Part shown: piece by piece, positions 12,085 through 29,110 of the stretch
Position numbering within the stretch: the first letter of the stretch is position 1
Layout: the number at the start of each line of letters is the position of its first letter
IMG/VR virus record: IMGVR_UViG_3300033145_003233
Location: 124,001 to 188,000 of that record
DNA from: a virus
Reading direction: 5' to 3' (one strand)
DNA length: 64,000 nt
Position numbers and translations under genes: made by a program
Notes under the pieces: generated by a model
The model's database searches: none
What the model was told of the DNA's origin: nothing
The model's input: only the letters and a program-made list of their open reading frames with translations

Positions 12085-12472
12085 GTGTTTTTATTTTTTC
12101 TTTATTCGGAGTATATATTCCGCCCCCTATTCCAAATCTTTCTTTTAAAACAATTGCCATTTGTTTTGAATCTTCAATAAAACTATCCCAATAATCTTCT
12201 CCAGAAGGAGAAGGAAGCTCTCCTCTTAATCTTCTTATATATCCGAATAATTTACCTATTCTTCCGCTCCCCCATATAAGGCCAGTTATTCTAGTGCTTG
12301 CCAAAAAGTAAATATTATTAAGGTTCCACATCATTTCTATTGAAGTCATTAATCTAAATCTATCTGGGTGTTTAGTTATTCCTATTCTCGTTTCTAATAT
12401 TATCGTAAATAAGATAAGAGGTATTGATATAATTATTAACATAAACATAAGAATGTATTTGAATATTTTCAT
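12074..12472 (-). CDS. Membrane-anchored hypothetical protein, 132 aa
   Basis: A hydrophobic N-terminal segment (about residues 5-27) after MKIFK predicts a single membrane anchor or uncleaved signal, followed by a basic region (IRRLRGELPSPSGEDYW) and a charged tail. No tag: it is the last gene of the tagged cluster and its ATG is coupled to the tag-encoding end of 12469..12696 by a 4-base ATGA overlap. Function unknown. Confidence 0.75.
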   Translation of the reverse strand: MKIFKYILMFMLIIISIPLILFTIILETRIGITKHPDRFRLMTSIEMMWNLNNIYFLASTRITGLIWGSGRIGKLFGYIRRLRGELPSPSGEDYWDSFIEDSKQMAIVLKERFGIGGGIYTPNKEKIKTLEK

Positions 12473-12696
12473 AAATCTAAAATGTCAAACCTATTATCTA
12501 TTGGATTATTTATTTTATAATCTAGTATATTACCTTCTTCATCTCTTTCAAATTTATTGAAACAAGATAAACAATATTTAAACTCACATTTTGACTGATC
12601 CTCTGGAGGAAAAAGATCTATTCTTACAGCATATTTATTCCCATCTAAAAGGTTGCCACAATGATCACAATAATATTTTTGTTCTTTTTCAATCAT
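12469..12696 (-). CDS. Zinc-ribbon mini-protein with C-terminal tag
   Basis: 75 aa. CDHC at 10-13 and CLSC at about 42-45 form a four-cysteine zinc ribbon with a 28-residue loop. Ends PIDNRFDILDL, the shared tag. The stop TGA is embedded in the next ATG (ATGA overlap). The fold is inferred from cysteine spacing; target unknown. Confidence 0.88.
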   Translation of the reverse strand: MIEKEQKYYCDHCGNLLDGNKYAVRIDLFPPEDQSKCEFKYCLSCFNKFERDEEGNILDYKINNPIDNRFDILDL

Positions 12697-13031
12697 AAAT
12701 CTAAAATCTCAAAACGATTATTAATAGGGTCAGGATTAACAATAGTGTTTTTCCCAACCCATATCTGATGTCCAATCGCAGCTTCTTCCCATGTAGAATA
12801 TCTTTCCTGCTCTCCATCGAGGGGGCCTCCAAATACCATAGTTTCAAAAACTATGGGAGGATCACTCTTATAATAATTATGATTCAAACCCAGAAACACA
12901 GTTGAAATCTCAATATCTCCTATCTTAGTTTGCGCAAGTACCCTATCAGCCTTAGCAAACCATTTGCCCCATTCATTAATGTCTTCACACATGACAGGTT
13001 TATGACCTTCTAATATATAATGCTCAGCCAT
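12693..13031 (-). CDS. Phage protein of the FETMVFGGPLDGE family, tagged
   Basis: 112 aa. The block DIEISTVFLGLNHNYYKSDP, then PIVFETMVFGGPLDGEQERY and STWEEAAIGHQ is a pattern I recognise from many phage and prophage hypothetical proteins of unknown function, usually ending shortly after this block. Here the C-terminus is extended by DPINNRFEILDL, the local tag, which shows the tag is added to a pre-existing family. ATGA-coupled to the next gene. Confidence 0.88.
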   Translation of the reverse strand: MAEHYILEGHKPVMCEDINEWGKWFAKADRVLAQTKIGDIEISTVFLGLNHNYYKSDPPIVFETMVFGGPLDGEQERYSTWEEAAIGHQIWVGKNTIVNPDPINNRFEILDL

Positions 13032-13038
13032 TTCTTAC

Positions 13039-13227
13039 CTATAAATCCAAAATTTCAAATCTACTCTCTATAGGAATAGGAAGTATTCCTTTCATTATTT
13101 CCTCTGTAGGCCAATATTCATCTTTATCATAACAAGTTTGGCAATAAGATGTGGCATGACCCTCAACATAAATAATTGTTTTGTAATACCCACATCGAGG
13201 ACAACGCATTTCATCTATAAAACTCAT
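13039..13227 (-). CDS. Zinc-ribbon mini-protein with tag
   Basis: 62 aa. CPRC at 9-12 and CQTC at about 29-32, with short connecting beta hairpin (YKTIIYVEGHATSY). Ends IESRFEILDL. It starts by 4-base overlap with the tag end of 13224..13442. Function unknown. Confidence 0.86.
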   Translation of the reverse strand: MSFIDEMRCPRCGYYKTIIYVEGHATSYCQTCYDKDEYWPTEEIMKGILPIPIESRFEILDL

Positions 13228-13442
13228 ATATCCAAAATCTCAAATCTATCATTAATTTTAACAATTTTATTTTTGTCTATGTTCTCCGAGACATTCTCTA
13301 AGGGGCAATCCGGAGAAATAAATGAAGAGACATAACTAGAATCAAATCTCTTCTGAGTTTTTTGGCAAACAAAAAAATAAACAACTTTTTCAAGAAAAGG
13401 ACACTCATCACAATATTCGATTAATAAATCTAATTTCTTCAT
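13224..13442 (-). CDS. Cysteine-rich small protein with tag
   Basis: 72 aa. CDECPF at 11-16, a lone Cys in VCQKTQKRF, and PDCPLE near residue 47: the CxxCP...C...CPL layout seen in many phage mini-proteins. Ends INDRFEILDI. ATGA-coupled at both ends. Confidence 0.85.
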   Translation of the reverse strand: MKKLDLLIEYCDECPFLEKVVYFFVCQKTQKRFDSSYVSSFISPDCPLENVSENIDKNKIVKINDRFEILDI

Positions 13443-13624
13443 ATATCTAAGATCTCAAATCTGCTATATATTGGCTCTGGAGGAATGTGCCTTCTAGCAC
13501 AAGTTGCACATGCTATAAATACTTTTCCTTCATCATCAGCGGATTCCCATTCCCATACTTCTTTAGCAACAGCAAATCTCTCATAACCTAGCATTATTTT
13601 TCTATTACAAAAAGCGCAATACAC
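13439..13624 (-). CDS. Zinc-ribbon mini-protein with tag
   Basis: 61 aa. CAFC at 3-6 and CATC at about 39-42 with an intervening WEWESADDEGKVF segment. Ends IYSRFEILDI. Overlaps its neighbours by 1-4 bases. Confidence 0.86.
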   Translation of the reverse strand: MYCAFCNRKIMLGYERFAVAKEVWEWESADDEGKVFIACATCARRHIPPEPIYSRFEILDI

Positions 13625-13863
13625 TATATATCCAATATTTCAAATCTACTATATATGCCTTCCGGCAATACATATTTACACTCATACCATCCACCATATG
13701 GCATTACATCATTTCTTTCACAACAAATAGAACAATATATTTTCGCTCTTTCATATTTGCCTTTAATCCCGATAGCCCACATCTTTTTATTTAAACGATA
13801 TTCTTTAATAGTTAAATATTTTTCACCTACCCATATCTCCTCACAACAAATATCACAATACAT
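13624..13863 (-). CDS. Zinc-ribbon mini-protein with tag
   Basis: 79 aa. Similar in plan to 13439..13624 (CDICCEEIWVGEKYLTIKE near the start, CSICC in the middle) but longer. Ends EGIYSRFEILDI. The two genes are probably duplicates. Starts and stops overlap the neighbours. Confidence 0.86.
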   Translation of the reverse strand: MYCDICCEEIWVGEKYLTIKEYRLNKKMWAIGIKGKYERAKIYCSICCERNDVMPYGGWYECKYVLPEGIYSRFEILDI

Positions 13864-14210
13864 TATATGTCCATTATCTCAAATCTATTTTCTATAATAG
13901 TATCTTTTTCTATAACTGTATTGCCTTTTGTAGGAAGAGGAGGTATGGGCATCCAATGAGTTACTGACCAAAATTTCTTTGATAAAGGGTTAAAAAAACC
14001 ATAGAACCTCTTATTTACATCAAACATAAACATTGAGGTGTCTCCTTTGTGAGATAAATGTTCAGGACAAATCCTCAATAGGGCAGAAAAGATTGTGCTG
14101 TCGGGAACTCCATTCTCCATTTTACCACGAACTGGGTCTATATCACAACAGAGAACCGTTTTCCCTATTGGGGGCAATCTCTTTTTAACATTATGCCATT
14201 GTCTTCTCAT
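13863..14210 (-). CDS. DUF551-like protein with tag
   Basis: 115 aa. QWHNVKKRLPPIGKTVLCCD at the start and FWSVTHWMPIPPLP near residue 80 match the plan of the DUF551 family of phage proteins (W...V..RLP..G..VL ... VTHWMPLP). The family normally ends near that motif; here it continues into ENRFEIMDI. Function of DUF551 is unknown to me. Confidence 0.86.
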   Translation of the reverse strand: MRRQWHNVKKRLPPIGKTVLCCDIDPVRGKMENGVPDSTIFSALLRICPEHLSHKGDTSMFMFDVNKRFYGFFNPLSKKFWSVTHWMPIPPLPTKGNTVIEKDTIIENRFEIMDI

Positions 14211-14446
14211 TATAAATCCATAATTTCAAATCTACTCTTTATTGGTGATGGTCTAGGAGCTTTTTTTGTCGTATCTATAGAACCATTTACTGCTCTGGCA
14301 TTCATCGAACATCTTCTATGATAACAATATAAACGATGTATCGGTTTCGACATATCAGTTAATCTTGCACTTTCTTCTGATGCCCAGATTTTTTTACCAC
14401 AATAATGACAAATTGTATAAGGAACTTTTATAGATGATGATCCCAA
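14210..14446 (-). CDS. Zinc-finger mini-protein with tag
   Basis: 78 aa. CHYCGKKIWASEES at 13-26, then LYCYHRRCSMNARA, a CxxC...HxxC-type zinc site. Ends SPIKSRFEIMDL. It starts inside the end of 14428..14778, with a 19-base overlap. Confidence 0.83.
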   Translation of the reverse strand: MGSSSIKVPYTICHYCGKKIWASEESARLTDMSKPIHRLYCYHRRCSMNARAVNGSIDTTKKAPRPSPIKSRFEIMDL

Positions 14447-14778: not shown

Positions 14779-14797
14779 TTGTTCTCTCCTATCTTTA

Positions 14798-15067
14798 TTA
14801 TAAATCCATAATCTCAAATCTATTATCTATGGAATCTGATACCTCTTCTATTATTTTTGCAAACTCTTTTATTTCTCTTTCTGACCAATTATAGCCAATC
14901 TCTTCCATCTTATAAATTCTAAACATTTCATGCCCATTTGCGCTCTTTTCTCGAGTAAAATCTTTTATTGTAAATATGTTTTTATGTTTTTTTAATGCTT
15001 CTCGTATGTCTGTATTATAATTATCATGAGCTATTATCTCTACCTTATCTCCTATTTTATATTTCAT
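14798..15067 (-). CDS. SH3/KOW-like small protein with tag
   Basis: 89 aa. Starts MKYKIGDKVEIIAHDNY, the same start as the four tandem paralogues at 22933-24105 (YKVGDxVKIKTW), and keeps IGYNWSEREIKEFAK against their WxWTDDMIEGLAK. Probably a fifth, displaced member. Ends IDNRFEIMDL. The YKxGDxV start is typical of small beta barrels. Confidence 0.84.
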   Translation of the reverse strand: MKYKIGDKVEIIAHDNYNTDIREALKKHKNIFTIKDFTREKSANGHEMFRIYKMEEIGYNWSEREIKEFAKIIEEVSDSIDNRFEIMDL

Positions 15068-15252
15068 ATATCTAAAATCTCAAATCTACTATATATTGGC
15101 ACAGGTATCGGGAGAGGCTTTGGAACCTGTGGATAACTATATTCGTGCTCACCAGGACATGTCTCACAATAATAGATCACAGCATAATCATCAGGACAAG
15201 TAACAATAGTTTTTAATTTTCCACAACAAGAACAAATTCTTAACACAGCCAT
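15064..15252 (-). CDS. Zinc-ribbon mini-protein with tag
   Basis: 62 aa. CSCCGKLKTIVTC near the start and CETCPG at 29-34, then a proline-rich linker (PQVPKPLPIPVP) leading to IYSRFEILDI. The linker suggests the tag is held away from the folded part. Confidence 0.85.
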   Translation of the reverse strand: MAVLRICSCCGKLKTIVTCPDDYAVIYYCETCPGEHEYSYPQVPKPLPIPVPIYSRFEILDI

Positions 15253-15254: not shown

Positions 15255-15446
15255 TTACAAATCCAGAATATCGAACCTACTAACCACTGATTCTCCTTTT
15301 TCTCCTCCACGTCTTACCCACCAATAACAAGCTGTACAGTAATATTCATAAGAAGATCCCCAAGCAGGATAGACATAATGATATTCTCCAAATGGTTTGC
15401 CCATTAAAGATTTCTCACAACGAAAACATTTTACCGGGTCATCCAT
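15255..15446 (-). CDS. Zinc-ribbon mini-protein with tag
   Basis: 63 aa from the Met at 15446, chosen because it gives the usual 8-base ATGGATGA overlap with the gene before. CFRC at about 6-9 and CTAC at about 34-37. Ends VVSRFDILDL. Confidence 0.82.
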   Translation of the reverse strand: MDDPVKCFRCEKSLMGKPFGEYHYVYPAWGSSYEYYCTACYWWVRRGGEKGESVVSRFDILDL

Positions 15447-15810
15447 ACGATAAGTCCAATATCTCAAACCGACTTATTATAGGATCAAAAACTTCTTCTT
15501 CTGGTTCTTCTGTTTCTTCTTTATAATTTAATATAAACTGTTTTAATGCACTCTTATTGCAAGAATCATTTGAATCGATATTAAGGTCGAACAAACCCAT
15601 TCTATTTTTCATCAACTTAACTTTTTTATTGCCGCTATTATCAATATACCTATGTGCAATAACGCTCGCCGTGTGTCTCTCTCTCATCCCTAAAACACCG
15701 AATAGAGGACTTTTTAACCTTACTTCCTCCGTAAAAATTTTATTCTTGGCCATATCATCGTCATCAAGAATTATAATTTTTCCATATGTTACATGGTCTA
15801 AAGTTATCAT
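15439..15810 (-). CDS. Hypothetical protein with near-terminal tag
   Basis: 123 aa from the Met at 15810, which has GGGAGGG 3 nt upstream; the longer ORF is unlikely. The acidic linker EETEEPEEEVFDPI precedes ISRFEILDLSYG, so the tag is followed by three residues created by the overlap with the next gene. No known domain. Confidence 0.8.
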   Translation of the reverse strand: MITLDHVTYGKIIILDDDDMAKNKIFTEEVRLKSPLFGVLGMRERHTASVIAHRYIDNSGNKKVKLMKNRMGLFDLNIDSNDSCNKSALKQFILNYKEETEEPEEEVFDPIISRFEILDLSYG

Positions 15811-16004
15811 ATTCCCTCCCGCTTTATTGCTAACATAATTAATGTTGTTTGAGTACAATTAAACCATCTTTGCACAAAATCTAATGCCAAGTCGTCCTCT
15901 TTATATTTATCTAAAAAATAGAACAATACTTTCTTGTCATAATCTGTAAATTCTTGAGAAGTTCTCTTTTTCTGATCTCCTAATTGTGTTCTCAAGGAAG
16001 TCAT
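15807..16004 (-). CDS. Small helical protein without tag
   Basis: 65 aa, predicted all-helical and charged (YDKKVLFYFLDKYKEDDLAL). It ends KREGI with no tag, and its stop overlaps the start of 15439..15810 by 4 bases. Unknown function. Confidence 0.72.
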   Translation of the reverse strand: MTSLRTQLGDQKKRTSQEFTDYDKKVLFYFLDKYKEDDLALDFVQRWFNCTQTTLIMLAIKREGI

Positions 16005-16210
16005 AGGTCTAATATCTCGAATCTACTAAATATTGGATCAAAAATTGGTTCCTCATCGAAAATATACACAGAAGGCGAAGAAGATCTTTTTTCGGTACAG
16101 CTATTACAATAAAAATTTTGTGCATTAACCGTATGATTAACAATAGTAAGAGGACCTCCTCCAGGGATAATTATTTTACTACAACTATTACACATATATC
16201 CAGTTGCCAT
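16001..16210 (-). CDS. Zinc-ribbon mini-protein with tag
   Basis: 69 aa from the Met at 16210; the upstream Met at 16240 lies in the tag of the previous gene in another frame. CNSC at 7-10 and CNSC at about 35-38. An acidic linker (FDEEPIFDPI) leads to FSRFEILDL. Confidence 0.84.
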   Translation of the reverse strand: MATGYMCNSCSKIIIPGGGPLTIVNHTVNAQNFYCNSCTEKRSSSPSVYIFDEEPIFDPIFSRFEILDL

Positions 16211-16211
16211 A

Positions 16212-16388
16212 TTATAAATCCAAAATCTCAAATCTATCATATATAGGAGTTGGAACTAAAACTGCCATACTTCTTTTACATTTTTTCTGAATAACACAGT
16301 CTGTGCAATGAAAATTAGCATCAAAGAAAACAATCTCTTCATTATCTTCTATCTTTTTGCGACAAGCATGACACTTCATTTCTACCAT
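16212..16388 (-). CDS. Zinc-ribbon mini-protein with tag (short gene)
   Basis: 58 aa, easily missed because of its size. Starts MVEMKCHACRKK with the TAATG overlap to the gene before; CHAC at 6-9, CTDC at 28-31, and ends PTPIYDRFEILDL. The perfect tag and the one-base overlap with its neighbour make it a convincing gene. Confidence 0.88.
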   Translation of the reverse strand: MVEMKCHACRKKIEDNEEIVFFDANFHCTDCVIQKKCKRSMAVLVPTPIYDRFEILDL

Positions 16389-16657
16389 TACAAATCCATC
16401 ATCTCAAATCTATCTATATTTTCTCTTTTCTCTACCTCCTTTTTTAAGGGCCTTCTTACTATATGATCTCCCTTCTGTCTTCCCCAACCAACCACTATCT
16501 CCCATCCATCTGCAAGAAGATAATATATAGATTCCATATTTTGCCCCATATCACCATATCTGCCATAGTCATACTTGTCAAAAAATCCATATTCATAATT
16601 ATCTATTTCCATTCTTTTCGTAATAACATATTTATCTTTATATTTATCTCTAGCCAT
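16388..16657 (-). CDS. LADGWEIV-family small protein with tag
   Basis: 89 aa. KYVITKRMEIDNYEYGFFD, then IYYLLADGWEIVVGWGRQKG and HIVRRPL. Paralogues at 18490 and 18696 share the YYLLADGWEIV...DHIVRR block. Ends NIDRFEMMDL. Function unknown. Confidence 0.84.
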   Translation of the reverse strand: MARDKYKDKYVITKRMEIDNYEYGFFDKYDYGRYGDMGQNMESIYYLLADGWEIVVGWGRQKGDHIVRRPLKKEVEKRENIDRFEMMDL

Positions 16658-16911
16658 TACAAATCTAATATTTCAAATCTGCTCCCTATCGGAATAAAGA
16701 AAGATTTATTTTCCAAAATCTCAAAATAGCTACTTGATTTAACAGAATCTCCTTCAAAATAAGAGAGAAAACAAATTTCCATTATTTCTGGAATCTCTAG
16801 AATTTCTTCTCCATTAAAAATAAGACGATAACAAGCAGTATGGGTTCCGGAGCAAGCAAATCCAGCACAAGCGAAAGAACGTTGAAAACGATCTTTATTT
16901 CTAACTCTCAT
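16657..16911 (-). CDS. Hypothetical protein with tag
   Basis: 84 aa. Cysteines in FACAGFACSGTHTACYRLIF near residue 13-32, beta-like remainder, ending PIGSRFEILDL. Not recognised. Confidence 0.8.
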   Translation of the reverse strand: MRVRNKDRFQRSFACAGFACSGTHTACYRLIFNGEEILEIPEIMEICFLSYFEGDSVKSSSYFEILENKSFFIPIGSRFEILDL

Positions 16912-17350: not shown

Positions 17351-17545
17351 TTATTTCTTCTTCAATTTTTTCAGAGCTTTTTTCGAAGCCACATCAATTC
17401 TTTTAATAATAAAAAATGGTCCCATCTCAGGATATTCAGAAACTATTTCTTCTTCAAAAGGACATTCAGAACAACATACAACTCTGTCTGATGCCAAATT
17501 CTTCTTACATAGTTTGACATGCTTTTTTAGCTTTTTCTTATCCAC
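17351..17545 (-). CDS. Lysine-rich small protein, CCSECPF motif, no tag
   Basis: 64 aa, basic ends (MDKKKLKKHVKLCKKN and KKALKKLKKK), central VVCCSECPFEEEIV. May bind nucleic acid by charge (inference). It directly follows 17545..17754 with a one-base stop/start contact. Confidence 0.7.
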   Translation of the reverse strand: MDKKKLKKHVKLCKKNLASDRVVCCSECPFEEEIVSEYPEMGPFFIIKRIDVASKKALKKLKKK

Positions 17546-17959: not shown

Positions 17960-17981
17960 TATTTACCCCCCACAATAATTT

Positions 17982-18245: not shown

Positions 18246-18259
18246 CTTTTTAACTCCTT

Positions 18260-18489: not shown

Positions 18490-18696
18490 TTAAACTTGTC
18501 TTCTTACGATGTGGTCATACCCGTATTTTCCCATACAAGCAACAATTTCCCACCCATCTGCAAGAAGGTAGTACCTACTATCTATCAGGCAATTATCACA
18601 TTCATCTTCGTTCTCATCATCTGAAAAATAACCATATTCATACCCTTTGATTATTTTTTTATCAATTATTCTATATTTCTCTTTTTTTTTAGCCAT
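18490..18696 (-). CDS. LADGWEIV-family small protein, no tag
   Basis: 68 aa paralogue of 16388..16657 (RYYLLADGWEIVACMGKYGY, HIVRR). It ends RRQV without the tag: the next base pairs are the promoter at 18453..18480, so the tag may have been lost when that region was rearranged (inference). Confidence 0.78.
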   Translation of the reverse strand: MAKKKEKYRIIDKKIIKGYEYGYFSDDENEDECDNCLIDSRYYLLADGWEIVACMGKYGYDHIVRRQV

Positions 18697-18947
18697 TATA
18701 TATCCATCATCTCAAATCTGCTAACTTGTGTCTTATCTTGTCTTATGAGAGGTCTTTTTAAATAAAAATCATCCTTATCTCCAGCAGAAGTGTTAGTAAT
18801 AACTTCCCAACCATCTGCAACAGCACAAAATAATGCTGGTGGTTTATCATTATTAGCAAGAAAACTGTAAAGAACACTATATTCATAGTCATCTATTACG
18901 ATAAAATCTGCCAAAACATATTTTGATTTATTTTTATCTTTATACAT
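18696..18947 (-). CDS. LADGWEIV-family small protein with tag
   Basis: 83 aa, third paralogue (DYEYSVLYSF, CAVADGWEVITNTSAGD, FYLKRPL). Ends QVSRFEMMDI. The stop overlaps the start of 18490..18696. Confidence 0.82.
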   Translation of the reverse strand: MYKDKNKSKYVLADFIVIDDYEYSVLYSFLANNDKPPALFCAVADGWEVITNTSAGDKDDFYLKRPLIRQDKTQVSRFEMMDI

Positions 18948-19485: not shown

Positions 19486-19731
19486 TCATATATCCATTAT
19501 CTCAAATCTACTAATCTTTTCTATTTTATCTTGTTCTTCATGAAATATTTTACTTATTGCTTTTTCTATCTCTTTCTTAGATTCTCTATATACAGTAGTA
19601 TCATCAGAGTGCATGAAACTAATCTGAATATGAGCCTCATAATCTTGTATCTCAGCTATATTATTAATATTAATCCAGATCTTATTCTCTCCCCAGTCTG
19701 TCAATTCTATAAAAAATCCCATTCTTCTCAT
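19486..19731 (-). CDS. FlbD-like small beta protein with tag
   Basis: 81 aa. FIELTDWGENKIWININNIA, then an acidic turn and VYRESKKEIEKAISKI: the strand-strand-ESxxEI plan recalls the FlbD/DUF family of short proteins (weak match, from memory). Ends KISRFEIMDI. Confidence 0.78.
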   Translation of the reverse strand: MRRMGFFIELTDWGENKIWININNIAEIQDYEAHIQISFMHSDDTTVYRESKKEIEKAISKIFHEEQDKIEKISRFEIMDI

Positions 19732-20042
19732 GATAAATCCAAAATTTCAAATCTATTAATAATTCCTCTTTTAAGCCGCTTTGCACTTGTCCTTCCTTTA
19801 GCTGGCCCAGCGAGACCCAATATAAAAATTATCTCTTCTTCTATTGCTTCGGCATATTTAGGAATTCTTGTTATATTTTCTAAATGTTCCTCAACCTCTA
19901 AAAAAGAACCTTTGTTATCTTTTTGATAATATAGTTCTCTTTCTACGCTTTCTCTAAGAGCTTTAGCATATAATGCTCTTCCTTTAGCAGTTTTTAATCC
20001 TTCTCTTATTGTATCTCTTTGTTTCTTCGTTAATTTTTTCAT
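19728..20042 (-). CDS. Helical basic protein with tag
   Basis: 104 aa, mainly helical and basic (KKLTKKQRDTIREGLKTAKG). Central EEIIFILGLAGPAKGRTSAK. Ends INRFEILDLS. ATGA-coupled to the next gene. Confidence 0.8.
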   Translation of the reverse strand: MKKLTKKQRDTIREGLKTAKGRALYAKALRESVERELYYQKDNKGSFLEVEEHLENITRIPKYAEAIEEEIIFILGLAGPAKGRTSAKRLKRGIINRFEILDLS

Positions 20043-20260
20043 AAATCCATAATGTCAAATCTATCAATTATTGGTTTAGCATTTTTTTCTGATATATCAT
20101 GTTCTTTCCATAAACCACCTATCAATGCTGCAAGCTCATTATTAATTTTTCTTATCTTTTCTTCGGAGTCGGCATAATTGCAACTAAGAGAAGGATCATT
20201 GTTTATAGCATGTATCATGCTAATATGATTATTTAGTAATTTGCGTTCATCTGGTGTCAT
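20039..20260 (-). CDS. Small helical protein with tag
   Basis: 73 aa, helical (DERKLLNNHISMIHAINND, EEKIRKINNELAALIGGLW). Ends PIIDRFDIMDL. Unknown function. Confidence 0.8.
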   Translation of the reverse strand: MTPDERKLLNNHISMIHAINNDPSLSCNYADSEEKIRKINNELAALIGGLWKEHDISEKNAKPIIDRFDIMDL

Positions 20261-21115: not shown

Positions 21116-21530
21116 TTCCTTCTCCTAAATCTAATATCTCTGACCTATGCTCTATCTGCTCTTCAGGTTGTAACACTTGCTTTTTCTTCTTAAAATTTTT
21201 GCGGGGAATAAAATCTAATGTATAATCAGGCCCATCACTTATTTTGTTAGTATAATTAGTCACTGTTCCCCTCTTTATCTCCCAATCAGGATATAACCTA
21301 ATAAGCTCCGCTATTAACTCCTCCCTAATTAATACGGGAAGTGAGCGACCATAAGTATCATTGTTAGTATGGAATATATGATGATTAAACGAAACTTCTC
21401 TAAAACGTATAAAGCCTGAGGTTAAAAGAGCAATCTCACAAGAAAGCAATGAATTGTCTATATAAGAGACTACACTATCAAGAGCATCTGAAAATCTTCT
21501 CTTTATAATATCATTAGAAGATACAGGCAT
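21105..21530 (-). CDS. ~150 aa paralogue family, member 3
   Basis: 141 aa from the Met at 21530 (MPVSSNDIIKRRF). The ORF extending to 21620 is out-of-frame overlap with the ThiS-like gene. SYIDNSLLSCEIALLTSGFI and IREELIAELIRLYPDWEI follow the family plan; tag EHRSEILDLGEGIVG. Confidence 0.8.
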   Translation of the reverse strand: MPVSSNDIIKRRFSDALDSVVSYIDNSLLSCEIALLTSGFIRFREVSFNHHIFHTNNDTYGRSLPVLIREELIAELIRLYPDWEIKRGTVTNYTNKISDGPDYTLDFIPRKNFKKKKQVLQPEEQIEHRSEILDLGEGIVG

Positions 21531-21732
21531 TCCCACCACCCATGAAATAAAGAAACTCCACCACATCCCCATCATTAAGGTTTGTAGTATCAAAGCCATC
21601 CCTACGAAGTATCTCTCCATTTAACTCAACAGAGACCATATCAGGCATCTTGACCTTCTGCTCAGTTAATAAACCACTTACACTAATACCATCCTTGCTC
21701 TCTATGTATTCACCATTTACAATAAGATTCAT
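21514..21732 (-). CDS. ThiS/MoaD-like ubiquitin-fold sulfur carrier
   Basis: 72 aa. NLIVNGEYIESKDGISVSGL, then VSVELNGEILRRDGFDTTNL and NDGDVVEFLYFMGGG match the ThiS family from end to end (N-terminal strand, LxxL helix, VAVNGxIVPR strand, DGDxVxxxxxxGGG). ThiS normally ends in Gly-Gly, adenylated and thiocarboxylated by ThiF. Here five residues (NACIF) follow GGG, encoded in the 17-base overlap with the next gene, so the glycine end would need trimming. Placed in the tagged cluster but has no tag. Phage role unknown. Confidence 0.82.
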   Translation of the reverse strand: MNLIVNGEYIESKDGISVSGLLTEQKVKMPDMVSVELNGEILRRDGFDTTNLNDGDVVEFLYFMGGGNACIF

Positions 21733-22091
21733 GATAAGTCCAAAATTTCAAATCTGCTGATTATAGGTTCCATATAAGTTGCTGTTATAGCATCCACTCT
21801 AGTATCCATTTCTCTAAAATCAAGAATAAGTATGATGTCATTAACATTATTTATTTGACGAAGAGAACAGGCGTAAAATTTACTGTCAATAATAAACCAT
21901 GCTGTACCTAATTCTAATTTAAATATTTCTGAATCCCTTCCAATCCCATAAAATTTATAATATCTTCCTGCACCACCATCGGTTATTAGCCATGGATCTC
22001 CCCTCTCCATATCAAATGTATTGACATTATCTCCCTGATAAACTTTGAGCCGTTGTTGAAGAATTCGTTCTATAATTATCTCATGAGTCAT
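21729..22091 (-). CDS. Hypothetical beta-rich protein with tag
   Basis: 120 aa. PWLITDGGAGRYYKFYGIGR and AWFIIDSKFYACSL suggest a beta fold. Ends IISRFEILDLS. Its ATGA overlap couples it to the ThiS-like gene. Unknown function. Confidence 0.8.
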   Translation of the reverse strand: MTHEIIIERILQQRLKVYQGDNVNTFDMERGDPWLITDGGAGRYYKFYGIGRDSEIFKLELGTAWFIIDSKFYACSLRQINNVNDIILILDFREMDTRVDAITATYMEPIISRFEILDLS

Positions 22092-22094: not shown

Positions 22095-22511
22095 TTACCA
22101 TTCTCCATCTGAATCTTCTAAATCTAACAATTCCGACCTATTCTCTACAGGAGCTACAGTCTCCTCTACAGAAGCAACTTCTTCAACTACTTGCTCCCTT
22201 GCTTGAGGATAAAATGCAAAAAAGCATTCACAGTTGCTTGATTGCATTTCTTCTACTATTTTCCAATCGGGATATAAAGGACTAAGACCTGAGAGCACAC
22301 CCAACCTAATAACTTTTGGAAAGTTTTTTTTCTGGCGGAATAAATGAGCATTTAACTTGTGCTCAGAAATCTTTACATATCCCTTCTCTAAAAAACTGTC
22401 ATATCTCGATAGCAATTGAGCATCTATATATATCTCTAACTTTTTGATATACTCATCCATCTTCTTTTGAAATCCATTCCTTTTCATAATCTCTTGTGGG
22501 GAAACTCCCAT
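22095..22511 (-). CDS. ~150 aa paralogue family, member 4
   Basis: 138 aa. SPQEIMKRNGFQKKMDEYIK, YIDAQLLSRYDSFLEKGYVK, LSGLSPLYPDWKIVEEM; a valine/glutamate-rich linker leads to ENRSELLDLEDSDGEW. Confidence 0.8.
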   Translation of the reverse strand: MGVSPQEIMKRNGFQKKMDEYIKKLEIYIDAQLLSRYDSFLEKGYVKISEHKLNAHLFRQKKNFPKVIRLGVLSGLSPLYPDWKIVEEMQSSNCECFFAFYPQAREQVVEEVASVEETVAPVENRSELLDLEDSDGEW

Positions 22512-22933
22512 TATTTATCTCCTAAATCTAATATCTCAGACCTATTCTCTATCTCAGACTCTCCTATATCTACGGTAGTAGGGGGAACAGGAGCAACAGG
22601 TGCTTCTATAACTACTTCTGCTCCCGCATTAGGAGTAAACTTTACCCAAGGTTCTGCTCTGTCAATCTCCCAATATATCGTCCAATCAAAATATAAATTA
22701 CTAATAATGGGGAATAAAGAGTTCCTAAGCAATGCAGGAATCTTTTTCCCCTTCTCTAAAAATTTCTTAGGTAGAAAATCTTTCTCAGATATAGCTATAT
22801 TTCCATCATTAATAAGTTCCTGATAATGAGAACTTATATAAGAGTCGATGCCTTGCTCGGCCGCTATAGCACACTCTTGTACTAAAGCTTCAAAATTATT
22901 ATCTATTAAAACTTGACCTGGAGAAATAGCCAT
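22511..22933 (-). CDS. ~150 aa paralogue family, member 5
   Basis: 140 aa. SPGQVLIDNNF start, GIDSYISSHYQELINDGNIA, LFPIISNLYFDWTIYWE, a proline-rich linker (VIEAPVAPVPP) and ENRSEILDLGDK. Confidence 0.8.
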   Translation of the reverse strand: MAISPGQVLIDNNFEALVQECAIAAEQGIDSYISSHYQELINDGNIAISEKDFLPKKFLEKGKKIPALLRNSLFPIISNLYFDWTIYWEIDRAEPWVKFTPNAGAEVVIEAPVAPVPPTTVDIGESEIENRSEILDLGDK

Positions 22934-23235
22934 TATTCATTTCCTAAATCTAAAATTTCAAATCTGTTATCTATTGAATTAAATATTGCTTCTTCTACTA
23001 ATTCTTCTATCATCTCATCACTCCAAATCCAACCAATCTCTACCATAGAATAACGAACACCCTCATTGCAAATACCTTTTATTGTAAGAATTCTATTAGA
23101 AATTGATTTTAATGCTTCTTCCATATCAGTTACAAAACGCCCTGGAATTGCAATAGCAAGGCCTGTACTGTCAAACTCCTTTGCCATGTCTACCCATGTC
23201 TTTATCTTTACTCTATCTCCTACTTTATATTTCAT
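22933..23235 (-). CDS. YKVGD family, tandem copy 1, with tag
   Basis: 100 aa. MKYKVGDRVKIKTW start, a helix with DMEEALKSISNR, ILTIKGICNEGVRYSMVEIG and WIWSDEMIEELVEEA. Tag DNRFEILDLGNE. First of four tandem copies; the YKVGDxVxI start is typical of small SH3/KOW-like barrels. Confidence 0.84.
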   Translation of the reverse strand: MKYKVGDRVKIKTWVDMAKEFDSTGLAIAIPGRFVTDMEEALKSISNRILTIKGICNEGVRYSMVEIGWIWSDEMIEELVEEAIFNSIDNRFEILDLGNE

Positions 23236-23519
23236 ATATCTAAGATCTCAAATCTGTTATCTATTTCTTCTGCTAATCCCTCTCCTTCAAATCCTTCTAT
23301 CATCTCATCACCCCATTCATTGTCAGTTCCTTCCATGCGATAAGAATGATCCCCAATATATTGTATTGTAAGAATTCTATCAGGGAGGGATTCTAATAAT
23401 ATTTCCATACAAGTTGTAAAGGATAATGGCACTGCAATAGAAGAACCTTTAAGACCAAATTCTTTCTTCATGTCTACCCATGTTTTTATTTTTACTCTAT
23501 CTCCTATTTTATATCTCAT
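23232..23519 (-). CDS. YKVGD family, tandem copy 2, with tag
   Basis: 95 aa, same plan (MRYKIGDRVKIKTWVDMKKE, LPDRILTIQYIGD, EWGDEMIEGFEGE), ending EIDNRFEILDI. ATG overlaps the upstream tag by 4 bases. Confidence 0.84.
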   Translation of the reverse strand: MRYKIGDRVKIKTWVDMKKEFGLKGSSIAVPLSFTTCMEILLESLPDRILTIQYIGDHSYRMEGTDNEWGDEMIEGFEGEGLAEEIDNRFEILDI

Positions 23520-23815
23520 ATGTCTAAGATCTCAAATCTGTTACCTATTGGTTCGGGCATCTTTATTTCTTTTGCTAATCCCTCTATCATATCGTCAGTC
23601 CATCTCCAATCAATATCTTCCATATAATAATATCCTTTTTCAATGCTTTTTATTATAAGAATCCTGTCAGAATTTAAGTCGCTTTCCATTCTGCTTGTAA
23701 AATTGCCTGATGTTGCAAGAACCCAATCATCTGGCCTGTCCCACCTGTGCCCGAACTCTGCCAGCATCGCTTCCCATGCTTTTATCTTTACCTCGTCTCC
23801 TACTTTGTATTTCAT
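23516..23815 (-). CDS. YKVGD family, tandem copy 3, with tag
   Basis: 99 aa, same plan (YKVGDEVKIKAWEAMLAEFG, NSDRILIIKSIEKGYYYMED, WRWTDDMIEGLAKEI), ending PIGNRFEILDI. Confidence 0.84.
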   Translation of the reverse strand: MKYKVGDEVKIKAWEAMLAEFGHRWDRPDDWVLATSGNFTSRMESDLNSDRILIIKSIEKGYYYMEDIDWRWTDDMIEGLAKEIKMPEPIGNRFEILDI

Positions 23816-24105
23816 ATGTCTAAGATCTCAAATCTGTTATCTATTGGTTCTATTGTCTTTATGTCTTTTGCTAATCCCTCTATCATATCATCAGTCCAAG
23901 ACCAACGAACATTTTCCATCTCATAAAAATCTTCTTTAACTTTTCGTATTATAAGAATCCTGTCAGAATTTAATGATTTTTCCATGTCAGTTATAAAAGT
24001 TTTTGATACTTTAAGAACCCGATCTTCTCCTGGCTGACACCCAAACTCTGCTTTCATCTCTTTCCATGTTTTTATCTTTACCTCGTCTTCTACTTTGTAT
24101 TTCAT
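23812..24105 (-). CDS. YKVGD family, tandem copy 4, with tag
   Basis: 97 aa, closest to copy 3 (NSDRILIIRKVKEDFYEMEN, WSWTDDMIEGLAKDI), ending PIDNRFEILDI. First of the four in transcription order. Confidence 0.84.
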   Translation of the reverse strand: MKYKVEDEVKIKTWKEMKAEFGCQPGEDRVLKVSKTFITDMEKSLNSDRILIIRKVKEDFYEMENVRWSWTDDMIEGLAKDIKTIEPIDNRFEILDI

Positions 24106-24326
24106 ATGTCTAAGATCTCAAATCTACTTTCAATTATATCTTCAGAATTTAATCTCTTTGGATTATCATAATCTAAATGACCATACTCCCTATAAAACGA
24201 GGCAGCAGTACATTGCCATTTATTATAATAGTTACATTCAGGCAATCCATCATGGCCAGGTAATTTACAAAGTGTTTTTTTCTCAAATTCACACTCTCTA
24301 CTCATTTTGCCATAAGATTCCTTCAT
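24102..24326 (-). CDS. Cysteine-rich small protein with tag
   Basis: 74 aa. CEFEKKTLCKLPGHDGLPEC and WQCTAASFYREYG: four cysteines, C...C...C...C. Ends IIESRFEILDI. May start at the second Met (MSREC). Confidence 0.8.
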   Translation of the reverse strand: MKESYGKMSRECEFEKKTLCKLPGHDGLPECNYYNKWQCTAASFYREYGHLDYDNPKRLNSEDIIESRFEILDI

Positions 24327-24730
24327 TGCTCATCACCTAAATCCAATATCTCTGCTCTATTCGTGATAACCTCATCAGGAGTTATTTCTTTCTGAACTCC
24401 CTCACCCACACTAGTACCTAATTCTTCTCTATAATTTATCTTAACTTTAGGAGATAATGCCAAATATTGAGAACCAACCGCGAATTTTAAATTCCAGCTT
24501 TTATATATTTTTCGCAATGGAACCATAAGATCATTTTCTGCAAAACCATGACTAGATTCAGTAAGTAGTTTCCATGGAATCCATACATAATTTAATTTAC
24601 ATATCTGCTCTTGTTCATCTACTATGTACCCGTTGATTATTGTTATACATGCACCAACAGCAGCTTCTAACCTTTTTTTCTGCTTACCGATATAAGCTAT
24701 CTTAATATCTTCTGGAGTTATCTCTTCCAC
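24323..24730 (-). CDS. ~130 aa TPEDI paralogue family, member 6
   Basis: 135 aa. EEITPEDIKIAYIGKQKKRL, CITIINGYIVDEQEQICKLN, LRKIYKSWNLKF, YLALSPKVKI, tag TNRAEILDLGDEQ. The TPxDIKxxYI start defines a subfamily running from here to 29110. Confidence 0.82.
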   Translation of the reverse strand: MEEITPEDIKIAYIGKQKKRLEAAVGACITIINGYIVDEQEQICKLNYVWIPWKLLTESSHGFAENDLMVPLRKIYKSWNLKFAVGSQYLALSPKVKINYREELGTSVGEGVQKEITPDEVITNRAEILDLGDEQ

Positions 24731-24731: not shown

Positions 24732-25127
24732 CTAATCCTCTAAATCCAATATCTCTGCCCTATGCTCTATCACTTCATTAGGAGCAACAGACTTATTTTT
24801 CTTCTTAATCTGACCAATATTTAAACTAAGCTCATCACTTATTTTTTTGCGGGAAGAAAAACGAATGTGTAATCCATCTTTTCTAATCTCCCAAGCAGTA
24901 TATATCTCTTTTAAGTATTTAAGTATGTCATCATATTCCCTGTTGTTTTCATAATTGATATGGTCACTAGTGATAAAATAGATATATCCATCTCTACATA
25001 TTTGTTCACATCTTTCTAATAATGCATCGTTAAGAGATTCTATAGCTGATTCTATCTTTATTTTTAGTTGCTCTCCATATGTCTCTATATATTTTTTTCT
25101 TACATCATCTGGTGTTATGCCATCCAT
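24732..25127 (-). CDS. ~130 aa TPEDI paralogue family, member 7
   Basis: 131 aa. DGITPDDVRKKYIETYGEQL, AIESLNDALLERCEQICRDG, YLKEIYTAWEIRKDGLHIRF, tag EHRAEILDLED. Confidence 0.82.
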   Translation of the reverse strand: MDGITPDDVRKKYIETYGEQLKIKIESAIESLNDALLERCEQICRDGYIYFITSDHINYENNREYDDILKYLKEIYTAWEIRKDGLHIRFSSRKKISDELSLNIGQIKKKNKSVAPNEVIEHRAEILDLED

Positions 25128-25128: not shown

Positions 25129-25590
25129 CTATTCCCCTAAATCCAATAACTCAGATCTATTCTCTACTGGACTATCCCTAACAACAATCTCAACCTCACT
25201 ACAATTAGGTTCTTTTTCTTCTTCCGATTTTTCTTCTAAAGTATTATCAAAAGGAGTCTTTGGCCTAAATCTAAAATAATAGTTAGATCCATAATTAGAT
25301 TCAACTATCCAACTAGTAAAAGTATCTTGTACGGCTTTTTTTATGAATTTCCAATTATAACCTAAATTTATCTCTTCTTTTATAAAGGACCGTTTAGGAA
25401 AAATAGATGATTGGTATATATCAATATAACCATCTAATATTAATTGACTCTTATCTTTTGATAATGTTTTATTAATTATCTGTATAGCATGGTTAATAAG
25501 ATTCTCTATTTTTGTCTTATTTACTTTTATATATTGATTTCTAATCATATCAGGTGTTATTTCTTCTTTATTATCACTCCAAACTTTCAT
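25129..25590 (-). CDS. ~150 aa TPEDI paralogue family, member 8
   Basis: 153 aa from the Met at 25590 (KVWSDNKEEITPDMIRNQYI), right after the stop of the previous gene; the longer ORF to 25653 is a shadow. AIQIINKTLSKDKSQLILDG, WKFIKKAVQDTFTSWIVESN, FRFRPKTPFD, tag ENRSELLDLGE. Closest to members at 26524 and 27016. Confidence 0.82.
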   Translation of the reverse strand: MKVWSDNKEEITPDMIRNQYIKVNKTKIENLINHAIQIINKTLSKDKSQLILDGYIDIYQSSIFPKRSFIKEEINLGYNWKFIKKAVQDTFTSWIVESNYGSNYYFRFRPKTPFDNTLEEKSEEEKEPNCSEVEIVVRDSPVENRSELLDLGE

Positions 25591-25591
25591 A

Positions 25592-25777
25592 TCAACTTTC
25601 CAAAACCTTCTTAATCTTCTCTGCCATGTCCATACCAAGCTCTCTAGTCGCATAGTCTATTATTGCAATATTACATATTGCATTCTTAGAGGAATCTTTA
25701 CATACAACCCATATAGGACGGTCTTTTAACATTCCCGAACCTTTCCATGGCTCTATTTCAACTTTTTCTGTTTTCAT
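25592..25777 (-). CDS. Small protein without tag
   Basis: 61 aa. KVEIEPWKGSGMLKDRPIWV, CNIAIIDYATRELGMDMAEK. Compact alpha/beta composition; not recognised. Its start overlaps the tag end of 25774..26145 by 4 bases. Confidence 0.72.
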   Translation of the reverse strand: MKTEKVEIEPWKGSGMLKDRPIWVVCKDSSKNAICNIAIIDYATRELGMDMAEKIKKVLES

Positions 25778-26145
25778 TCTCTTAAATCCAATATTTCTGA
25801 CCTATTTTGAACTTTCTCAATTTCTTCTTCTATATCTGAAGAACTGACAGGTTTATCGTCTCTCATAACTTCATTTAAATGAATTTTTAACCCTTCTTTT
25901 AATGTAAAGAGGAGTTTTCCATCATCTTTTGTAACTTCCCAATCTTCATATATTGCATTTAAAGCCTTTATAAGAATTTCAAGATCATTATCATATTTAT
26001 AAGAAATATGACAGCGACCTGTTTGACCTACCTTTTTATAATTAGCCAATAATGTTTTATTAATAACTGTCATGGCCTTTTGTACTTCTTGACCTATAAA
26101 TTCTGTAAATTTTTCTTTAATATCATCTGATGTTACGGGTTTCAT
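25774..26145 (-). CDS. ~125 aa TPEDI paralogue family, member 9
   Basis: 123 aa. KPVTSDDIKEKFTEFIGQEV, AMTVINKTLLANYKKVGQTG, KALNAIYEDWEVTKDDGKLL, tag QNRSEILDLRE. Confidence 0.82.
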   Translation of the reverse strand: MKPVTSDDIKEKFTEFIGQEVQKAMTVINKTLLANYKKVGQTGRCHISYKYDNDLEILIKALNAIYEDWEVTKDDGKLLFTLKEGLKIHLNEVMRDDKPVSSSDIEEEIEKVQNRSEILDLRE

Positions 26146-26146: not shown

Positions 26147-26524
26147 CTAAGTCCCTAAATCCAAAATTTCTGCTCTATTATCTATAATATCGTCAGTACT
26201 TACCGGCTTATTTTCTCCTTTAATCTTAACTGAATCTAATTTAATCTCATCTATAGAATCCTTAGCAGAAAAAGTCATAGAAAGACCATTCTTAGTGATA
26301 TTCCAATCAGCATATATCTTTTGTAAATATTCAATAATAGTGTAAATTTCTGTGCTATTAGCATATTCCATTCCACTAATAGGAATATTAACATAACCTT
26401 TCTGACAGATTAATCTATAATTAGCTAATAATGCCTTATTGAAATAAGCTACTGCTATACCAACCTTCTTCTCTAAATCAGCTTTATATGTATCTTTGAT
26501 AGTTTTAATAGTCATACCTTCCAT
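26147..26524 (-). CDS. ~125 aa TPEDI paralogue family, member 10
   Basis: 125 aa. AVAYFNKALLANYRLICQKG, YLQKIYADWNITKNGLSMTF, tag DNRAEILDLGT. The ASTDDI-like block near the end (PVSTDDII) repeats the start motif of the family. Confidence 0.82.
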   Translation of the reverse strand: MEGMTIKTIKDTYKADLEKKVGIAVAYFNKALLANYRLICQKGYVNIPISGMEYANSTEIYTIIEYLQKIYADWNITKNGLSMTFSAKDSIDEIKLDSVKIKGENKPVSTDDIIDNRAEILDLGT

Positions 26525-26979
26525 TATATATCCAATATCTCTGACCTATTATCTATTGAACTATCAACAACAACTTCTTCTTTTTTCTTTTTTTCCGATT
26601 TTTTATCTAATTTCATAGTGAAATCAGAGCCAGGATGAAATCTAAAGTAATATTCTCCACCAGCTCTATTAGATTCTATATTCCAACTTGTAAAAATATC
26701 CTGTACAGCTTTATTTATAAATTGCCAAGTATTTTTTAAATCTAATCTTTTTCCATCAAAGGATTTATTTGGGAAAATATGTTTTTGGCCTACATCAATA
26801 CTGCCACTCTCTATTAATTCTTTAGTTCCTGCTGATAGCTTTCCATTAATTATTTGTACAGTGTGACGAATAAGATTTTGTATCTTTATATCGTTTTTAT
26901 TTATATACTTATTTCTAAGCATATCGGGAGTTATCTCTTCTTCACTATCACTCCATGTTTCTTGAGGTTCACATCTCAT
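26524..26979 (-). CDS. ~150 aa TPEDI paralogue family, member 11
   Basis: 151 aa. RCEPQETWSDSEEEITPDML, TVQIINGKLSAGTKELIESG, WQFINKAVQDIFTSWNIESN, YYFRFHPGSDF, tag DNRSEILDI at the very C-terminus. Nearly the same N-terminus as the next gene upstream, a recent duplication. Confidence 0.82.
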   Translation of the reverse strand: MRCEPQETWSDSEEEITPDMLRNKYINKNDIKIQNLIRHTVQIINGKLSAGTKELIESGSIDVGQKHIFPNKSFDGKRLDLKNTWQFINKAVQDIFTSWNIESNRAGGEYYFRFHPGSDFTMKLDKKSEKKKKEEVVVDSSIDNRSEILDI

Positions 26980-26980: not shown

Positions 26981-27432
26981 TTATTTCTCTAAATCTAACA
27001 ACTCTGACCTACTATCTATCGAAATATCAATAACATCAACTTTTTTTCTTTTGATTTTTTATCCAATGTTGTATCAAGAGGGGTTCTTGCTCTAAAGTTT
27101 AAAGATCTAGTCCGATCAACAATAGATTCAACATTCCAATTTGTAAAAGTGTTCTGTACGGCTCTAACTATAAATACCCAAGTACTGATTAAATCTATTT
27201 CATCTTTTTTAAACATAGGTTCAGGAAAAATAAATTCTTGATTTATTTTAATGCTGTTATTTTTCATTAGGTCTACAGACCCCTGTGATAAACCTTTATT
27301 AACCATTTGTATAGTATGACTAATAAGCTTTTTTATTTTTTCTGAGTTACGCTTTAAATACTCATCTCTGAGCATCTCAGGTATTATCTCTTCTTTATTT
27401 TTACTCCATGTGTTTTGAGGTTCACATCTCAT
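26981..27432 (-). CDS. ~150 aa TPEDI family, member 12: frameshift needed for tag
   Basis: The zero frame runs from 27432 to a TAG at 27016 (138 aa, ending KKLMLLIFR, no tag). At 27040-27046 the frame reads GAA AAA AAG, containing the canonical -1 slippery heptamer A_AAA_AAG. After a -1 shift the frame continues KKVDVIDISIDSRSELLDLE and K to TAA at 26981, giving a perfect tag and the normal 1-base gap to the next ATG. Either programmed frameshifting or a single-A deletion in an eight-A run explains this. N-terminus RCEPQNTWSKNKEEIIPEML matches member 11. Confidence 0.75.
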
Positions 27433-27433
27433 C

Positions 27434-27895
27434 TTATTTCTCTAAATCTAACAACTCTGACCTGTTCTCTATTGCCTCTCCAGGGACTATTGCCTCTTCT
27501 TTCGCTTCTAATTCTATTTTTATGTTTTTATCAATAAGTTCTTTGGGAGAAAATTTAAAATGAGGGTTTGCTTTATTCTTAACCAGCTTTACGTCCCATT
27601 CTGTGAAAACTCCATAAATAGTTACATAAATAAAATCTATTCTTTCAGATTTTTTCGAAAAATTCCAATTCTTTCCATTTATAGTGATTCTATCAATAAA
27701 AACCTCGTCCCATAAAGAAGCAAAAGTATCTTTATATACTATGATAATAGTGCCATCTTTAACAATAGAATCACTATGATATTTTAAATCTTCATTAACG
27801 ATTTTTATAGTTGAAGAAATAACCTTCTCTATTACAGAAATATGTTTATCCTTATATCCATTCAGGATGTTCTCTGGAGTTATAGGCTCTTCCAT
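27434..27895 (-). CDS. ~150 aa TPEDI paralogue family, member 13
   Basis: 153 aa. EEPITPENILNGYKDKHISV, TIKIVNEDLKYHSDSIVKDG, IYGVFTEWDVKLVKNKANPH, FSPKELIDKNI, tag ENRSELLDLEK. Confidence 0.82.
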   Translation of the reverse strand: MEEPITPENILNGYKDKHISVIEKVISSTIKIVNEDLKYHSDSIVKDGTIIIVYKDTFASLWDEVFIDRITINGKNWNFSKKSERIDFIYVTIYGVFTEWDVKLVKNKANPHFKFSPKELIDKNIKIELEAKEEAIVPGEAIENRSELLDLEK

Positions 27896-27898
27896 TAG

Positions 27899-28075
27899 TT
27901 ACTCTTCCGCAAATGGAAGGTTCATCCATTCTTCAAAACATTTTGCTTTGCAAAAATCTTTCTTATGGAATCTATCAGGCAATGTTATTCCACTCCTATT
28001 ACCAAGATATCCTTCTAATTTTATTCTTTCTTCCCCACAAATTTCTCCACAAAAATCACATTTTATAATAATCAT
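27899..28075 (-). CDS. Zinc-finger mini-protein without tag (short gene)
   Basis: 58 aa. KCDFCGEICGEERIK at 5-19 and FCKAKCFEEWM at 41-51. It fits between its neighbours, overlapping the tagged gene before it by 4 bases (ATGA). Ends PFAEE without tag. Confidence 0.78.
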   Translation of the reverse strand: MIIIKCDFCGEICGEERIKLEGYLGNRSGITLPDRFHKKDFCKAKCFEEWMNLPFAEE

Positions 28076-28275
28076 TTTTCTCCTCCTAAATCTAAAATAT
28101 CTATTCTACTCTCTATCCCTTCATCGAGAATTTCTTCTATTTTCTCTAATTGAGAAAACTGAACGACTTGGAACTTTTTTTGACAATGATCACAAATCTG
28201 TTCACCTGAGATGTCTTTTACCATTTTAAGTTTCTTATCACAATGAGGGCATATCTTACTATATAAATATTCCAT
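28072..28275 (-). CDS. Zinc-ribbon mini-protein with variant tag
   Basis: 67 aa. CPHCDKKL at 9-16 and CDHCQKKF at 28-35 form a classic ribbon; a helical linker (QLEKIEEILDEG) precedes ESRIDILDLGGEK, where Ile replaces Phe at the second tag position. Confidence 0.85.
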   Translation of the reverse strand: MEYLYSKICPHCDKKLKMVKDISGEQICDHCQKKFQVVQFSQLEKIEEILDEGIESRIDILDLGGEK

Positions 28276-28697
28276 TACTTTTCTCCCAAATCTAAAATCT
28301 CTGCTCTGTTATTTATAATATCGTTAAGAGTTACTTCTTTCTTCTGTTTCTTGTTAAAATCTACTCGTATTTCTATATCAATAGGAGTTTTAGGTCTAAA
28401 ACAAAAATAGTGACCTCCAGAATAGAAATAAGAACTTACTTTCCAATTCTTATAAAATTTACGTACGTTGTCCGCCAAAACCGTCCATCTACTTTCAATA
28501 GCTTTTGCACAGAATCCATCATTATCAAGATCTCCTCTGGCCTTCACATAAACAAAGCCATCATCTACTATCGCTTGATATCTCTCTTTTAATAATTTGT
28601 TTATAATATCTATAGAATAGGAAACGAGATTTTCCATTATCGGGGTTTCTTTGTCTATATATAATTCTTTAATATTTTCTGGTGTTACTTCTTCCAT
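28275..28697 (-). CDS. ~140 aa TPEDI paralogue family, member 14
   Basis: 140 aa. EEVTPENIKELYIDKETPIM, SIDIINKLLKERYQAIVDDG, LADNVRKFYKNWKVSSYFYS, CFRPKTPIDIEI, tag NNRAEILDLGEK. Confidence 0.82.
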   Translation of the reverse strand: MEEVTPENIKELYIDKETPIMENLVSYSIDIINKLLKERYQAIVDDGFVYVKARGDLDNDGFCAKAIESRWTVLADNVRKFYKNWKVSSYFYSGGHYFCFRPKTPIDIEIRVDFNKKQKKEVTLNDIINNRAEILDLGEK

Positions 28698-29110
28698 TAT
28701 ATATCCAATATATCAAATCTGCTCTCTACTGGTTCAGTAGTAATTAAAGGAATATCTTTTTTCTGTTCGGCAGTAGGGGCCATCTCTATTACAATAGGTT
28801 CTTTCGGCATAAATTGAAAATACCGTCCCTTATTTTCACAACCTGAAGCTATATCCCAACTTTTAAAAAATTTGCCTAAACAATCTCCCAAGAGTTCCCA
28901 ACTGGTATCTGTTGCTCTGAAGCCTTTAGGAAGATTTAAATCTGAACGAAGTATGTTAAGATATCCAGATGAGATAATAACTTTATACTTATCTACTAAT
29001 ATCTGATTAATAGTTTCTATACATGGAGACACTAATCCATCTAATAATGGAATCTCTTTTTCCATAAATATATTTTTGATATCTTCGGGAGTTACTTCTT
29101 TCATATCCAT
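28697..29110 (-). CDS. ~137 aa TPEDI family, member 15; first gene of the cluster
   Basis: 137 aa. MKEVTPEDIKNIFMEKEIPL, CIETINQILVDKYKVIISSG, GDCLGKFFKSWDIASG, tag ESRFDILDI. It is the promoter-proximal gene of the tagged cluster; the 29134..29161 promoter lies 24 bases upstream. Start at 29110 or the internal Met at 29104. Confidence 0.83.
   Translation of the reverse strand: MDMKEVTPEDIKNIFMEKEIPLLDGLVSPCIETINQILVDKYKVIISSGYLNILRSDLNLPKGFRATDTSWELLGDCLGKFFKSWDIASGCENKGRYFQFMPKEPIVIEMAPTAEQKKDIPLITTEPVESRFDILDI

Follow-up and report, generated by a model that had tools for sequence, protein, structure and literature searches.

Several described systems place one short peptide on otherwise unrelated proteins. 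Encapsulin cargo-loading peptides are C-terminal linear peptides that require an encapsulin shell, and in phage T4 a capsid-targeting sequence at the N-terminus directs proteins to the head. The T4 internal proteins form "a highly diverse set" with only the capsid-targeting sequence in common (PMC3012670), while T4 gp43, gp33 and gp55 are unrelated proteins with interchangeable hydrophobic/acidic clamp-binding motifs at their C-termini, preceded by divergent linkers (PMC2988020). Sorting can also proceed with no terminal signal, as in the phage nucleus of Chimalliviridae, where PicA/Imp1 import recognizes protein surfaces (PMC11087766). Here we describe a common C-terminal tag on 43 small proteins encoded in a 64,000-nucleotide window, positions 124001-188000 of a 547,943-base viral record (IMG/VR IMGVR_UViG_3300033145_003233; here G000). 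By analogy of design, the T4 clamp tails appear to be the best precedent for this tag.

From its sequence the source virus reads as a tailed jumbo phage; terminase-like, tape-measure-like, DnaE-type polymerase, DnaB, UvsX and UvrD genes were seen in the genome. Within 12469-29110 of the window, 43 of about 56 genes, all 43 on the minus strand, end in or near a tag of 7-10 residues with the consensus [I/V]-x-[S/N/D]-R-[F/S/A]-[E/D]-[I/L]-[L/M]-D-[L/I], sometimes followed by 1-16 further residues. A preliminary description of the window had put the number at about 43, and our recount agrees: 42 matches to a strict protein pattern (R-x-[ED]-[ILMVF]-[LMIVF]-D-[LIMVF], in frame and no more than 20 residues from the end of an open reading frame, ORF), every one on the minus strand at 12469-28720, plus the variant RFGMMDL (16908-17348). 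For one of the 43, the tag of gene 27016-27432 is read in a different frame beyond an A7 run. The tagged genes form the dense run described earlier but are not strictly consecutive, as about a dozen untagged genes (e.g. 14428-14817 and 17351-18696) lie between them. The earlier statement that the tag is absent outside this cluster holds within the window, where a decayed copy had been reported at 145 and a zinc-ribbon-like protein (145..426, minus strand) indeed ends in RWEILIL; it does not hold for the genome, in which about 29 pattern matches lie elsewhere on both strands.

Chance is excluded as the origin of these copies. Among 688 non-overlapping ORFs from the examined stretches of the record, 61 have the motif among the final 27 residues, compared with 0.13 expected from the rate of internal motifs, and a looser DNA pattern applied genome-wide gave 72 matches compared with 7 for the reversed pattern used as a control. 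The conservation is evident at the level of the peptide: 67 tags comprise 62 distinct 21-mers that encode just 27 peptides, and the identical RFEILDL occurs in 17 genes with 15 DNA spellings. This contradicts conservation at the DNA level alone, with no amino-acid constraint, which the preliminary description had named in advance as grounds for refutation. Codons in the tags are largely in line with genome usage, and the residual bias (Leu CTT is absent, and the last codon tends to end in A, giving ATGA with the next start) fits both common descent and gene overlap.

We then considered how the tag relates to the proteins that carry it. When 41 window proteins are stripped of the tag their bodies fall into 22 sequence clusters, including zinc ribbons, a DUF551 protein, YKVGD barrels and a 14-member paralogue family, which bears out the view that the carriers come from unrelated families. 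The DUF551 protein (13863..14210, minus strand; PF04448, 22.7 bits) is lengthened by a linker and RFEIMDI, as had been noted. The untagged protein at 18490-18696 has two tagged paralogues, 16388-16657 and 18696-18947, and ends at the point where their bodies end; the tag is therefore an add-on, and this gene can be read as a natural tag-minus control. Conservation is likewise concentrated in the tag. In a family of 119-residue proteins from five phages, 9 of 129 alignment columns are invariant and three of these fall in the tag, and in the 14-member window family three of the four invariant columns (of 244) do so. AlphaFold2 models of the 119-residue protein and of a window paralogue (28275..28697) both show a folded core, followed by tails of low predicted local distance difference test score (pLDDT; below 50 for residues 101-119 of the former, mean about 49-59 for residues 111-140 of the latter, with about 50 in its tag region). 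Disorder of the tag tail is thus likely rather than proved because the underlying alignments are shallow, with 5 and 14 sequences, respectively. Fold searches with these two proteins returned nothing below E = 0.001.

When 2.9 million viral contigs were scanned by pattern, the tag was detected in only four records, and the sole match in 84,980 bacterial and archaeal genomes was a 38-residue chance ORF. Whole-record pattern counts in the relatives G001 (351 kb), G002 (298 kb), G003 (a 65 kb fragment) and G004 (29 kb) were 36, 27, 4 and 2, compared with 3, 5, 0 and 0 for the controls, although neither of the 2 matches in G004 was confirmed as a tagged ORF. Together G000-G003 encode 130 tagged proteins in 70 sequence clusters, of which 22 are in the window. 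Across these four genomes tagged orthologues remain tagged at 30-80% identity and untagged ones (DnaE, UvrD and others) remain untagged. The tag is kept even where bodies of orthologues have diverged to 24-40% identity. Variants seen include RSNWLDL, RFKILDL and RFDYLDL. Distant relatives, reached through DnaE and through a metalloprotease-like gene, place the motif mainly in one setting. G005, G006 and G007 contain 4, 2 and 2 convincing tagged cases, all in the operon beside DnaE and comprising a HExxH protein of about 265 residues, the 119-residue protein and small neighbours, with tails that resemble NRFDLMDF, TRYDFIEIEDEEE and TRADLLDIEIESE; still more distant contigs have TRYDFLDLSSNDE, SRYDFMDIIEEGK and SKRFDLIDFGD at equivalent operon places. 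The ancestral operon contains DnaB, primase and DnaE. Untagged proteins of 145, 71 and 194 residues (G000:413813-414250, 412765-412980 and 412986-413570, respectively) are conserved in G000, G001, G002 and these distant relatives and are always co-located. An intermediate state is seen in G008 (219 kb), which has 13 matches and none for its control. Given the tagged DnaE operons of distant relatives and the intermediate state of G008, the motif is old in the replication operon and spread later onto about 70 protein families in one jumbo-phage clade. Longer common ends on unrelated bodies, such as Y-x-D-I-x-S-D-I-x-x-R-F, suggest that gene ends were copied between them. One DnaE-type polymerase is split over two ORFs (L003:8982-10391 and L003:7016-8998), between which lie an HNH-like ORF and two tagged genes.

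The amino-acid constraint, the modular attachment, the predicted disorder and conservation above that of the body all support the docking or sorting peptide proposed in the preliminary description. The reading we favor, with confidence that is about evenly balanced, is that the tag acts as a short linear docking motif, placed at the C-terminus, for one shared hub; the motif began in the replication operon and was copied onto about 70 families. In each client a separate folded body would be followed by a flexible linker and then by the common disordered peptide, and this peptide would bind a single hub in the infected cell. The motif began on the zinc-metalloprotease-like protein and the 119-residue protein beside DnaE, and its copying within one jumbo-phage clade would have made new small proteins clients of the hub. 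We infer a single common partner for all tags. Slightly less probable, in our judgment, is the broader proposal of a transferable C-terminal zip code that sends about a tenth of the proteome (about 70 families clade-wide, membrane proteins included) to one new hub or compartment and spreads to acquired genes. Membership of the hub in the phage replication/transcription complex, where it would serve as a tool belt in the manner of the T4 sliding clamp for gp43, gp33 and gp55, is a distinctly more tentative suggestion.

The range of clients is informative. Six tagged proteins from four families carry clear membrane segments, one tagged G001 protein is SSB-like, and one tagged protein is metalloprotease-like; PDB sequence searches with the metalloprotease-like and 119-residue profiles gave no convincing match. 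The tag is missing from DnaE, UvsX, DnaB and the main SSB, and likewise from every large structural or packaging protein that was identified.

Of the more specific alternatives, binding of the tag to the hydrophobic pocket of a phage or host sliding clamp, which would hold dozens of small proteins on replicating DNA or set them in competition for the clamp, survives best, yet we consider it unlikely. The tag shares the layout of the T4 clamp-binding tails, namely a C-terminal hydrophobic/acidic motif behind a flexible linker on unrelated proteins, and the ancestral operon encodes DnaB, primase and DnaE. The T4 tails are SLDFLFG, TLDFLL and SLDFLYEAND, and the RB69 gp43 tail, SLFDMFDF, resembles SRFEILDL and NRFDLMDF. 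When tag profiles were scored against 326 T4/RB69 ORF C-termini, RB69 gp43 ranked 2 with the ancestral profile and 5 with the expanded one, at scores (9.0 and 1.5) under those of every training sequence (at least 13.5 and at least 15.3). The established T4 clamp binders ranked inconsistently with the same two profiles (gp43, 35 and 179; gp33, 11 and 76; gp55, 84 and 56), leaving the clamp reading suggestive only. Furthermore, the tag does not match the bacterial beta-clamp motif QL(S/D)LF, having R for Q and L/M for the terminal F. The DnaE proteins of these phages lack the tag and retain a separate, bacterial-type D[ILM]F motif at their ends (VDMFEDLF, DIFG, DLFG). The T4 tails also serve few clients, in contrast to about 70 families here, membrane proteins among them, and a search for sliding-clamp genes by PF02768 and PF02916 found none. 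The differing DnaE tails, the negative clamp search, the inconsistent T4 ranks and the tagged integral membrane proteins, which are unexpected for a DNA-bound hub, also weigh against placing the docking hub in the replication complex. We therefore treat a clamp, or a different replication hub, as a lead of low to at most tentative probability.

A stability signal, i.e. a degron or adaptor-recognized turnover signal that governs how long early proteins persist, whether soluble or membrane-bound, is less probable again. Being generic, such a signal would account for the wide range of clients, including the membrane proteins, and would suit an unstructured C-terminal location. However, the tag is not strictly C-terminal, with up to 16 residues after it, its sequence is very specific, and in distant phages it is present on a conserved core protein, the metalloprotease-like one. 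To our knowledge no C-degron has this form.

We regard a localization signal for a nucleus- or vesicle-like infection compartment as improbable. Giant phages do sort proteins (PMC13282480), and as with PicA/Imp1 one machine would handle many phage proteins; the known import nevertheless reads surfaces, whereas the tag is terminal. The cargo expected of phage-nucleus import is replication and transcription machinery, and the absence of the tag from DnaE, UvsX, DnaB and the main SSB therefore argues against a general compartment import signal, as do the tagged membrane proteins.

Marginally less probable than compartment sorting is a capsid cargo signal by which diverse small proteins would enter the prohead, a C-terminal equivalent of the T4 capsid-targeting sequence. 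This was an example offered in the preliminary description, and the parallel is real in that a single terminal peptide marks highly diverse small proteins from variable, clustered genes. The T4 sequence, however, is N-terminal and head-directed, while all copies of the tag are C-terminal and its ancestral place is a replication operon rather than a head module. Several unrelated integral membrane proteins are tagged, which argues against capsid cargo, and the structural and packaging proteins identified are not. The tag sequence also differs from the known encapsulin loading peptides; no sign of these or of an encapsulin shell was seen, and no search aimed at a shell was made. Finally, a DNA-level element that merely resembles a peptide tag, whether a start overlap or a recombination sequence, can be dismissed as exceedingly improbable: 28 of 61 tagged genes overlap the following gene start and several tags are extended by the common Y-x-D-I-x-S-D-I stretch, suggestive of 3'-end shuffling, but synonymous variation within RFEILDL rejects it, residues are conserved between highly diverged orthologues, and in 16 of the 61 the next 30 bases contain no gene start, which rules out a start-overlap element.

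Closer inspection of the cluster, in which every gene listed is on the minus strand, shows how the tag is distributed over the bodies. Zinc-ribbon-like proteins end in RFDILDL (12469..12696 and 15255..15467), RFEILDL (13039..13227 and 16001..16240), RFEILDI (13439..13624, 13624..13863 and 15064..15252), RFEIMDL (14210..14446) or RIDILDL plus 4 residues (28072..28275); a LIM/zinc-ribbon-like protein ends in RFEILDL (16212..16388) and a Cys-rich protein in RFEILDI (13224..13442). The GGPLDGE-type protein (12693..13031, RFEILDL) has an orthologue at G001:12978-13343 that is tagged too, and the G001 and G002 orthologues of 15439..15858 (RFEILDL followed by SYG) are also tagged. YKVGD barrels carry RFEIMDL (14798..15067), RFEILDL followed by GNE (22933..23235) and RFEILDI (23232..23519, 23516..23815 and 23812..24105). 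Further tagged proteins end in RFEMMDL (16388..16657), RFEILDL (16657..16911), RFEMMDI (18696..18947), RFEIMDI (19486..19731), RFEILDL plus S (19728..20042 and 21729..22091), RFDIMDL (20039..20260) and RFEILDI (24102..24326). Members of the paralogue family end as follows: RSDILDI plus 16 residues (20257..20718), RADILDL plus 9 (20699..21115), RSEILDL plus 6 (21105..21620), plus 3 (22511..22933) or plus 2 (25774..26145), RSELLDL plus 7 (22095..22511) or plus 2 (25129..25653 and 27434..27895), RAEILDL plus 4 (24323..24730), plus 3 (the modeled 28275..28697) or plus 2 (24732..25127 and 26147..26524), RSEILDI (26524..26979) and RFDILDI (28697..29110). In one paralogue (26984..27432) the A7 frameshift splits the body from RSELLDL plus EK, for which a pseudogene, a sequencing error and slippage are candidate readings. 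The cluster also encodes an untagged ThiS-like ubiquitin-fold protein (21514-21732; Pfam 1e-12) whose GGGNACIF end runs past the usual terminal glycines.

Additional features were observed elsewhere. A Volactin-type actin-like protein (L015:7140-8162, G000:507137-508162; Pfam 4e-59) is encoded in the tail module near two tagged genes, and residues 964-1003 of an 1868-residue protein (L009:12200-17806) form a zinc-ribbon segment common to small tagged-variant proteins of G001 and G002. Tagged major-capsid fragments were considered and rejected: two proteins contain a VPYTPL/APYIPL stretch and one gave a sub-threshold Gp23 match, but no Gp23 was detected when six records were searched for it. 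On the minus strand of the window, 936-10708 holds twelve tandem, mostly overlapping paralogues of 254-293 residues that start M..(E/D)I(A/V)YL(V/I)QT(P/S)DY; two copies searched against PHROGs and two against Pfam had no match, and a related protein starts at G000:278859. The same strand encodes a PARP-1-like protein with WGR, PARP regulatory and catalytic domains (46126-47430; Pfam E 1.8e-27), which is unusual in phage, and a 467-residue protein with HNH and LAGLIDADG endonuclease matches in separate parts (44655-46058), with further HNH genes nearby.

The preliminary description knew of no comparable system, and in open-access text we likewise found no account of a phage in which about one gene in ten encodes the same C-terminal peptide. 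Given this, and given that none of the known systems compared here accommodates the tag, we rate it as categorically new as a system, whereas it probably acts as a docking motif, which is a familiar type of mechanism. The function of most small giant-phage genes was described as an open question in a 2026 review (PMC13282480). With a common tag on dozens of small proteins, finding the partner of the tag could place all of them at once. The tag could also be used to direct proteins within infected cells and, if the proposal is true, it would show viruses to be capable of evolving a transferable code for sorting or recruiting proteins.

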